A stretch of 64,000 bases of DNA from Leifsonia aquatica (GTDB lineage: Bacteria; Actinomycetota; Actinomycetes; Actinomycetales; Microbacteriaceae): NCBI RefSeq assembly GCF_014190775.1, contig NZ_JACHVP010000001.1, positions 1 through 64,000 on the forward strand, in the 5' to 3' direction. Positions 13,498-62,586 of the stretch are shown here, one piece after another; position 1 is the stretch's first letter, and the number at the start of each line of letters is the position of its first letter. Both the position numbers and the translations under genes were made by a program. The notes beneath the pieces are model-generated. The model searched no databases and had not been told where the DNA came from. It saw only the letters and a program-made list of their open reading frames with translations.

Positions 13498-13585
13498 TGG
13501 CGGAGAATGGGGGATTCGAACCCCCGAGGGCTTGCACCCAACACGCTTTCCAAGCGTGCGCCATAGGCCACTAGGCGAATTCTCC
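13498..13585 (-). tRNA. tRNA-Ser(GGA)
   Basis: The reverse strand folds as a type II tRNA with a long variable arm. The acceptor stem is GGAGAAT/ATTCTCC, the anticodon stem CACGC/GCGTG encloses the loop TTGGAAA with anticodon GGA, and the T arm carries GGTTCGAAT. The discriminator is G and the CCA end is encoded at 13498-13500. Confidence 0.96.
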
Positions 13586-13685
13586 TTGGTTGCCACCGCC
13601 TTGCGGGCGACGGCTCACAATATCCTAGCGGACGCGAGGAGGGGGTCCGTGCACGAGCCCCCAGATCGACCCGCTAGACTGTTCG

Positions 13686-13779
13686 ACGGCTCCCCACGTG
13701 GCGCCATCCAGGCCAACTCCCCCAGGGCGGAAACGCAGCAAGGGTAACCGGGCTCTGGCGGGTGCGTGGGGGGTCTTTT
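13686..13779 (+). ncRNA. ffs: signal recognition particle RNA, small bacterial type
   Basis: The conserved SRP core GGCGGAAACGCAGCAAGGG lies at about 13726-13745, and the outer stem pairs CCCCACG near 13693 with CGTGGGG near 13765. A U-run CTTTTT at 13774-13779 ends the RNA as an intrinsic terminator. A TAGACT box at 13675-13680 is placed for a start near 13686-13688. The RNA binds Ffh and targets nascent membrane proteins. Ends are approximate. Confidence 0.93.
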
Positions 13780-13880
13780 TCATTCCATCGCCGCGGGGCG
13801 CCCGCGTAGAGTGAGGGCAGCATCGCCCGCTCTTCTACGTTCTGTAGAATGGGCATCCCGCCGAAGAATGGAATGGTGGA

Positions 13881-44882: not shown

Positions 44883-45397
<515 letters not shown>

Positions 45398-49745: not shown

Positions 49746-51695
<1,950 letters not shown>

Positions 51696-51790
51696 GGGGA
51701 GTCTGTTCGCTCCTTTGCGATGCTGATTGTTCTGTCGTGGCGCGACAATGCCTGACTCTACAACCTCACGAAGACCTCCCTCGCGGAGAC

Positions 51791-51818
51791 TTGCGTTTGC
51801 ATTGATTCTGCGTAAACT
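51791..51818 (+). promoter_or_regulatory. promoter of the 6C RNA
   Basis: TTGCGT at 51791-51796 and TAAACT at 51813-51818, 16 bp apart, form a plausible promoter whose start would fall near 51825, shortly before the first 6C hairpin. The region between the acs start and this promoter shows no gene. Confidence 0.6.
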
Positions 51819-51824
51819 TGGACC

Positions 51825-51927
51825 CGGCCGAATGTAAATTCGTGCGTGCGGCGCAAACGATTCCCCCCAATCCTGCGCCGCAGTGGCCGCACCTGTTCCC
51901 CCCAATAGGTGCGGCCCCCCTTTTTTT
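51825..51927 (+). ncRNA. 6C small RNA
   Basis: Two strong hairpins each show six consecutive Cs in the loop, the hallmark of the actinobacterial 6C RNA family. Hairpin 1 is TGCGGCGCA (51847-51855) with TGCGCCGCA (51874-51882); hairpin 2 is GGCCGCACCT (51885-51894) with AGGTGCGGCC (51907-51916), directly followed by CCCC and seven Ts (51921-51927) as intrinsic terminator. In mycobacteria the family member B11 lies beside the homologous tad region and pairs with mRNAs through its C-rich loops. The 5' end is inferred from the promoter. Confidence 0.93.
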
Positions 51928-52033
51928 AACGATCTGTTACATCGCTCGCCTACAACGCTGTGGGGAAACGGGCTTCTCCACAGATCGGCCGCTCGAGCGG
52001 CCCGGACCTCTCGGCATCGGATTGGCTCGGGGG

Positions 52034-53038
52034 ATGTTCACCGAATCACGCCGGCCTCCGCACGCCGATCCGGGGCTCTGGGAGACCTTCGGCGTCCTCA
52101 CGCCGTACCTCCTGCGTCCCGACATCACCGACCTGTTCATCACCGCGACGGGCGAACTGTGGAGCGACGGTGGGCCGGGCGGCTTGAAGCGCATCGACGA
52201 CTGGCAGGCGGACGAACCGGAGGTGCGGCGCCTCGCGGTGCAGCTCATCGCCCGGGGCGGGCGGCACATCGACGAGGCGACGCCGTTCGTCGACGTGCGT
52301 CTGCGCGGCGGAGTGCGCGTCCATGCCGTGCTGCCGCCCGTGTCGACCGGAGGGACGCTGCTCTCCATCCGCATCCCGAGCCCCGAAGTGCTGACGCTGC
52401 CCGATCTCGTGGCGGCGGGATCGCTCAGCCCACCTCAGCGCGCGGTGCTCGATCGTGCGGTCGCCGCCCGCACCAACCTCCTCGTGACGGGCGCCGGCGG
52501 CGCGGGCAAGACGACGCTCCTGGCGGCTGTGCTCGCCCATGCGCCGCCCTCCGAGCGCATCGTGGTGATCGAGGATGTCGCGGAGCTGCGCATTCCGCAT
52601 CCGCATGTCGTCGGGCTCCAGTCGCGGCAGCCGAACCTGGAAGGCGCGGGCGGCGTCGGTCTGCGCCGTCTTGTGCGGGAGGCGCTCCGCATGCGCCCGG
52701 ACCGTCTGGTCCTGGGGGAGTGCAGGGGAGAGGAGATTCGAGACCTCCTGGCTGCGCTCAACACGGGGCACGACGGCGGTGCGGGCACCCTCCACGCGAA
52801 CTCGCTGCTCGACGTGCCGGCACGCTTGGAGGCGCTCGGTGCGCTCGCAGGTCTAAGCGAGCACGCTCTGGCCCGGCAGGCGGTCAGCGCGATCGGTCTG
52901 GTCGTCCACGTCGAGCGCAGCGGGACCAGTCGGCGCGTCGCCGGCTTCGCGCGACTGGCCGTCGGAGCGGACGGACGGCTCGGGGTCCGTGCGCTGACGG
53001 TCACCGAGGACGATGCCTCCGCGGGGAGCGGGGAATGA
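52034..53038 (+). CDS. tadA: TadA/CpaF-type secretion ATPase
   Basis: This 334-residue ATPase powers assembly of Flp/tad pili at the cytoplasmic face. It has an N-terminal domain with PDITDLFITATGELW, and a GSPE core with Walker A GAGGAGKTT at 153-161, the Asp box VVIEDVAEL, and Walker B RLVLGECRGEEIRDLLAALN, with HANS as a conserved loop. It is shorter than most CpaF proteins (400-450), lacking much of the N-terminal region, as in actinobacterial Rv3659c-like members. ATG 52034 is used. The stop overlaps the next gene (ATGA). A tadZ/SsdA-like gene, usual upstream in mycobacteria, is absent. Confidence 0.92.
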   Translation: MFTESRRPPHADPGLWETFGVLTPYLLRPDITDLFITATGELWSDGGPGGLKRIDDWQADEPEVRRLAVQLIARGGRHIDEATPFVDVRLRGGVRVHAVLPPVSTGGTLLSIRIPSPEVLTLPDLVAAGSLSPPQRAVLDRAVAARTNLLVTGAGGAGKTTLLAAVLAHAPPSERIVVIEDVAELRIPHPHVVGLQSRQPNLEGAGGVGLRRLVREALRMRPDRLVLGECRGEEIRDLLAALNTGHDGGAGTLHANSLLDVPARLEALGALAGLSEHALARQAVSAIGLVVHVERSGTSRRVAGFARLAVGADGRLGVRALTVTEDDASAGSGE

Positions 53039-62510: not shown

Positions 62511-62586
62511 GCCGCCCTAGCTCAGTCGGCAGAGCATCTCACTCGTAATGAGAAGGTCAAGGGTTCGATTCCCTTGGGCGGCTCCA
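62511..62586 (+). tRNA. tRNA-Thr(CGT)
   Basis: Acceptor GCCGCCC/GGGCGGC, D arm with AGCTCAGTCGGCAGAGC, anticodon stem TCTCA/TGAGA with loop CTCGTAA giving anticodon CGT, T arm with GGTTCGATTCC. Discriminator T at 62583 and an encoded CCA at 62584-62586. It lies upstream of a terminator hairpin. Confidence 0.96.

Follow-up and report, generated by a model that had tools for sequence, protein, structure and literature searches.

Comparison with relatives establishes that positions 51825-51927 on the forward strand of our window, the whole 64,000-nt stretch of Leifsonia aquatica DNA that was analyzed, belong, as a diverged member, to the actinobacterial 6C RNA family (RF01066), and it likewise establishes the structure of this RNA, the conservation of its promoter and terminator, and an old placement beside tad genes. 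With good confidence, we read the locus as a 6C-family small RNA of ~100 nt, which has its own promoter, is ended by its second hairpin and most likely acts in trans through its two C6 loops. The 6C RNA as such is already known, and the Leifsonia locus adds to this sRNA family a member that is ordinary and well supported; its value is comparative. A first-pass annotation had proposed a 6C RNA with two CCCCCC-loop hairpins, a promoter and a U-tract, located beside acs on one side and 107 bp before an ATPase gene on the other, and all of these elements were confirmed. The features are:

51791-51796, forward strand: -35-like box TTGCGT of the 6C promoter, conserved in the genus
51813-51818, forward strand: -10 box TAAACT (TANNNT) of the 6C promoter, conserved among relatives
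51825-51927, forward strand: 6C RNA, predicted transcript of ~100 nt, 5' end placed from the -10 box and 3' end from the U-tract
51827-51845, forward strand: conserved 5' hairpin P1, beyond the Rfam 6C model, recognized by pairing in relatives
51847-51884, forward strand: hairpin P2, apical loop CCCCCC (51863-51868) closed by GAUU/AAUC, from fold, alignment and covariation
51885-51916, forward strand: terminator hairpin P3, apical loop CCCCCC (51898-51903), from terminator scan, fold and covariation
51921-51927, forward strand: T7 tract of the 6C terminator, from sequence and terminator scan
52022-52027, forward strand: TTGGCT, weak here, at the position where most Leifsonia have TAGCGT, the -10 box of a predicted leaderless tadA promoter, 6 nt before the ATG
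52034-53038, forward strand: tadA-family ATPase gene (profile match to TIGR03819, E 1e-119), a neighbor of 6C rather than part of it, starting 107 bp past the 6C end at 51927
49746-51695, reverse strand: divergent neighbor starting at 51695, which we take to be acs (acetyl-CoA synthetase), a name from the first-pass annotation

The covariance search suggested in the first-pass annotation supported the identity only in part. At permissive settings the best Rfam match was 6C (RF01066) at 51847-51922 on the forward strand, with 39.5 bits and E 8e-4 (E 0.0019 in a whole-genome scan), but this is below the RF01066 gathering score of 47 bits, a curated detection threshold rather than a biological trait, and at gathering thresholds Rfam gave no match over the 6C interval. 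We assign the locus to the family because stems covary in 81 relatives, the RNA occurs as a single copy in 28 of 28 Leifsonia genomes, promoter and terminator are conserved, and relatives scoring above the cut-off occupy the same locus. Several traits of the family are present: a pair of neighboring hairpins at 51847-51916, whose loops hold about six C apiece; covariation backing this two-hairpin structure (81 of 142 unique sequences used); and a second hairpin that is by its sequence a Rho-independent terminator. The ssd/tadZ-tadA locus, a recurrent trait rather than a definition, is present as tadA, without ssd here. Rhizobiales-2 RNA (RF01723) shares a C-rich loop and matched weakly (25.9 bits, E 0.47); it was rejected, being below its gathering score of 40 and outscored by 6C over the same stretch. 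Elsewhere in the window Rfam recognized three tRNA genes and the bacterial small SRP RNA (13501-13781, 45324-45397 and 62511-62583).

The strict two-loop pattern found one copy in the L. aquatica genome. Two weaker candidates for a second copy were set aside by eye: C3:129937 (29 bits) is a single terminator hairpin with a C7 loop, and C4:305191 (18.9 bits) has no pair of C-loop hairpins. Coding through the interval was likewise rejected. In the window no stop codon interrupts the tadA frame as far back as 51818, yet this frame runs through 6C in only one of 28 genomes, so the RNA is not coding and the open frame is a chance occurrence.

Folded alone, 51830-51930 reaches -46 kcal/mol versus -23.0 +/- 3.1 kcal/mol for shuffled sequences (z -7.45), with none of 200 shuffles as good. 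In alignment A1 (81 sequences hand-chosen for diversity from the 142 unique ones), the proposed 6C structure is paired in 96.5% of cells, and 168 cells carry double-sided changes versus 45 +/- 9 in shuffles (0/500 as good). Sliding the pairing by 1-3 columns lowers the paired cells to 29-52% and abolishes the covariation signal. Both C-loops and their closing UU/AA pairs are nearly invariant in A1, although for the loops this invariance is partly selected because most rows were retrieved by the loop motif. The 5' hairpin P1 forms at least five pairs in all 81 relatives versus 58% of shuffles, with a mean energy of -7.8 versus -3.3 kcal/mol; the three outer pairs that the alignment could accommodate vary more (67.5% and 85.8% of cells), partly through misregister. 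P1 agrees with the descriptions of mycobacterial 6C as having three helices (PMC6582537) and of a C. glutamicum 6C whose 5' end is 27 nt longer (PMC4046766), as far as the available portions of these reports go.

The promoter claimed in the first-pass annotation consists of TTGCGT and TAAACT separated by a 16-nt spacer. TANNNT occurs at the same distance in 137 of 142 unique relatives versus 1/142 and 4/142 in two control windows, and the -35-like box is found in 128/142; a generic sigma-70 scan called no promoter at 6C. At the other end, P3 with its T-tract is by sequence a good intrinsic terminator, and the U-tract is kept in 139 of the 142. We also noticed that TTAA (51926-51929) ends or trails the U-tract in 101 of 142 unique relatives versus 4% of shuffles, a conservation which reaches past the expected end of the RNA. 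On the acs side, TAGAGT (51760-51755, reverse strand) is conserved in the genus and could be the acs -10 box, in which case the 6C and acs promoters would be divergent. An inverted repeat in the acs leader, TGTCG-TGGCG-CGACA (51733-51747), is nearly invariant in the genus and may be an acs operator or leader hairpin.

A pattern of two UUCCCCCCAA-type loops is found once per genome in 28 of 28 Leifsonia, while the reversed-pattern control gives 0. Rfam alone matched at E <=1 in 19 of these 28 genomes (17 of these matches being the 6C locus) and above the gathering score in none; across the family it matched at E <=1 in 97 of 150 genomes and above the gathering score in five. The five above-cut-off loci (L032-L036) have the same acs-6C-tadA arrangement, and the strict two-motif pattern is matched by 24 of 30 family loci fetched with the Rfam model, independently of the loop motif. 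This extends 6C to a family that the Rfam cut-off mostly misses, in a form that has UUCCCCCCAA loops and a conserved hairpin at its 5' end.

We looked at diverged forms in a non-random set of 27 genomes and 14 tadA upstream regions, picked by hand because they were exceptions or had been missed by Rfam. A TIGR03819-type ATPase was matched in all 27 genomes (15 over the cut-off), and the strict C-loop pattern lies at or upstream of tadA in 12, while one more (G378) has 6C by Rfam. Among the 14 remaining upstream regions, four have two C-loop hairpins of 4-6 C (L436, L439, L442 and L445), one has a single C-loop hairpin (L438), and nine were by eye without a C-loop hairpin pair. Failure of Rfam to detect 6C thus sometimes reflects divergence, and 6C may be truly lacking from some relatives that carry tadA. 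The five regions with C-loops carry 4-5 C in one or both loops, are missed by the strict pattern and represent a natural loop-length series.

Three Curtobacterium genomes (L104/L123, L159/L106 and L198/L148) have two 6C-type RNAs each, on different contigs, one at the usual locus and the other without acs alongside. Two further Curtobacterium copies (L206 and L127) have no tadA nearby, and second 6C-like copies (L336 and L337) were seen in two related genomes from another family of the same class. Extra 6C copies are known in mycobacteria, according to the accessible part of one report (PMC9569102).

The neighborhood is highly conserved. All 28 Leifsonia loci have a divergent acs on one side and, on the other, tadA downstream in the direction of 6C. 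Among named genomes, after 10 non-actinobacterial repeats were dropped from 120 loop-pattern rows, 79 of the 85 eligible loci have tadA no farther than 1.1 kb away, and 79 of 87 have acs at such a distance (79/92 and 79/93 before removal). The Curtobacterium copy L206 was omitted from one step of the analysis and kept in the counts of 142 relatives and of named genomes. Of the six loci without tadA within 1.1 kb, L207 and L131 carry the gene farther downstream, at 1.8 and 4.2 kb; L127, L148 and L206 are copies from Curtobacterium, and L113 showed no tadA within the stretch of DNA examined around 6C. In four exceptions that we followed (G101, G068, G079 and G378), tadA lies ~1.4-6.7 kb downstream on the same strand.

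The first-pass annotation had also said that this placement looks ancient and that the same RNA lies beside tad genes in mycobacteria. A phylum sample of 296 genomes, not selected for their neighbors, gave 24 Rfam matches, and in 20 of 21 credible copies Ssd/TadZ or TadA is encoded co-directionally within 1.5 kb downstream of 6C. Three rows were set aside because by eye they had no C-loop hairpin pair (L325, L327 and L334), as were two second copies from genomes already counted (L336 and L337); without this judgement of credibility the count is 20/24. A HAD-IB hydrolase gene is divergent on the other side in 17 of the 21 credible loci, and acs in two, both Microbacteriaceae. In L317, another open frame may sit between 6C and the tad gene. 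6C precedes tad genes from Microbacteriaceae to genomes presumed to be mycobacterial and Streptomyces, and in M. tuberculosis B11 runs from 4099478 to 4099386, adjoining Rv3660c, which is tadZ (PMC2764107, PMC9531140; available portions). Both claims are upheld, and the 6C-tad placement is old.

Our literature search found the 6C-tad linkage discussed as such nowhere, none of the matches listed joining both; 6C sRNA and pili co-occurred only within a reference list, and no paper on 6C RNA in Microbacteriaceae was found. The adjacency of B11 and Rv3660c is already in print under the gene number (PMC2764107, in the part available). The linkage outlasts a changed upstream neighbor (HAD gene or acs), a missing ssd and spacers of up to 6.7 kb, and this persistence is the interesting part. 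One speculative and rather improbable reading places 6C, as an ancestral element, at the head of the actinobacterial tad locus, with a conserved core function tied to Tad pili or to a cell-surface state that they need and with genus-specific targets acquired later. A 2025 paper on B11, as far as its accessible text goes, asks why the RNA is conserved though its targets differ between species (PMC12395582), and the tad linkage gives this question a concrete test.

The pairing of C-rich loops with G-rich ribosome sites, put forward in the first-pass annotation, corresponds to the published mechanism of B11/6C (PMC10470900, PMC12395582; in the portions available), and in Leifsonia it is expected by homology with mycobacteria. 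The RNA would be transcribed from its own housekeeping-type promoter and terminated by its second hairpin; either C6 loop could then pair with G-tracts at or near the ribosome-binding sites of unlinked mRNAs, which, without Hfq, would block translation and cause the mRNA to decay. For B11 of M. abscessus, one C-loop of the two, whichever it is, is reported to suffice for repression via the eccB4 5' UTR with its G6 tract (PMC10470900), and in M. marinum the terminator C-loop is reported to pair with G-tracts beside the RBS, followed by decay (PMC12395582), both from partial texts.

Target prediction on G-rich leaders, also suggested in the first-pass annotation, yielded candidates but no enrichment beyond that expected of Shine-Dalgarno sequences. 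Within 464 kb sampled from the own genome, with starts called by a crude gene finder and one row disregarded (the antisense of 6C called as a gene start), loop complementarity was not enriched at 357 gene starts: duplexes of -12 kcal/mol or stronger occurred at 32/357 versus 65/357 in mononucleotide shuffles. At starts, G-runs outnumber C-runs only slightly (G5 19 versus C5 11 of 357; G6 four versus zero, one of the four an artefact), matching what Shine-Dalgarno sequences would give. The full loop complement TTGGGGGGAA has no occurrence elsewhere in the own genome. GGGGGGN{3,10}ATG gave 34 rows versus 24 for the reversed pattern in the own genome, and 55 versus 24 and 20 versus 14 in two relatives, with overlapping runs counted repeatedly; this excess is not specific because Shine-Dalgarno sequences are G-rich. 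Among candidate targets, with starts placed by a rough rule for the first two, the leader of a P-type ATPase, located in the own genome at C1:1503219 on the reverse strand, has a G-tract of at least five in 22/28 Leifsonia (six G in only three) and may simply carry a strong Shine-Dalgarno sequence, and a LysM protein has a G-run of at least five in only 7/28. A pspA-like paralog has a near-full loop match in 3/28 genomes (G-runs of 6, 5 and 6) and any match in 8/28; in those three (L302, L303 and L304) this accessory paralog has the leader GGGGG(G)AACGAATC before its ATG.

The strongest duplex at any genuine start of the 357-gene sample is that of tadA itself: its start in the window, ...GAUUGGCUCGGGGG-AUG, and the 14-nt top of hairpin P2 give -17.0 kcal/mol, a value exceeded only by an artefact row. 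This favors a trans-acting RNA that has the Tad machinery or coupled cell-surface genes as its conserved core target, a role that would explain the tad linkage seen in 20 of 21 credible copies phylum-wide and agrees with the surface phenotypes of B11 in mycobacteria (PMC10470900, PMC12395582; portions available). We nevertheless consider this unlikely. Of the 28 Leifsonia, only two, L074 and the window, have a G5 run at the tadA start, five further loci having such runs at other places in the region. Moreover, the duplex consumes stem bases of 6C, and on these grounds direct pairing with the tadA start was rejected; a leaderless tadA mRNA would offer little leader for pairing, the published B11 targets, in the parts of the reports available, are ESX and lipooligosaccharide genes (PMC10470900, PMC12395582), and synteny may last without functional coupling. 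It is very unlikely that the C-loops serve a protein partner, as sponge or scaffold, rather than mRNA pairing. The near-invariance of loops and UU/AA closing pairs would suit such a role, and although most rows were selected by loop motif, the Rfam-fetched loci point the same way (24/30); however, some relatives have loops of 4-5 C, and in mycobacteria loop mutations abolish repression of G-tract reporters, as pairing predicts (PMC10470900, PMC12395582; available portions). That the locus is nothing but a terminator and a chance hairpin has a negligible probability: P3 with its T-tract is indeed a good intrinsic terminator, but covariation, an own promoter and family-wide conservation stand against a mere terminator, and there is nothing upstream for it to terminate since acs is divergent.

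The obvious cis explanation, raised in the first-pass annotation, is that the hairpins form a regulated terminator setting read-through into tadA. In nearly every genome examined, 6C precedes tad genes on the same strand, and the tadA -10 box of the window species (TTGGCT) is weak. Against this, a predicted leaderless-type tadA promoter, TANNNT-N5-7-ATG and usually TAGCGT-N6-ATG, lies in frame between 6C and tadA in 23/28 Leifsonia (mononucleotide shuffles 1.4%), the distance between loop 1 and the projected start of tadA ranges from 166 to 472 nt within the genus, 6C and tadA are 1.4-6.7 kb apart in the four genomes above, and in M. tuberculosis RT-PCR gave no product spanning B11 and Rv3660c in the accessible parts of the reports (PMC2764107, PMC9531140). 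Because of the predicted promoter, the variable spacing and this RT-PCR result, read-through was rejected as the main function of 6C, and we give it little credence as an explanation of the locus. The motif is missing in five of 28 loci (the window, L063, L074, L079 and L087), of which L063, L074 and L079 come from the three genomes closest to the window by two proteins; the window and L074 have TTGGCT-CGGGGG-ATG in the same register. Read-through is probably to be rejected in the main, with the window species, where it may still hold, as the weakest case.

Read as a trans-acting small RNA, the Leifsonia 6C compares as follows with known systems. With the RF01066 family it shares consecutive C6-loop hairpins of which the second is the terminator, occurrence in Actinomycetota and a tad/ssd locus; it differs in its score (39.5 bits, below 47), in diverged stems and in having both loops as UUCCCCCCAA closed by UU/AA, and its divergent neighbor is acs instead of the HAD hydrolase gene of the known family. 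B11, the 6C RNA of M. tuberculosis, M. abscessus and M. marinum, is similar, in the portions of its descriptions available, in length (93 versus ~100 nt), three hairpins, two C-loops, its own SigA-type promoter and co-direction with a tad gene (Rv3660c/tadZ for B11); in contrast, ssd/tadZ and the HAD gene are not beside the Leifsonia 6C. Ms1 RNA lies near B11. In large genomes presumed to be Streptomyces, 6C lies between the HAD gene and ssd. The 6C RNA of Streptomyces coelicolor, scr3558, belongs to the same family and its expression is reported as verified (PMC8539372, in the part available), yet it flanks SCO3558 rather than acs and differs in sequence from the Leifsonia RNA.
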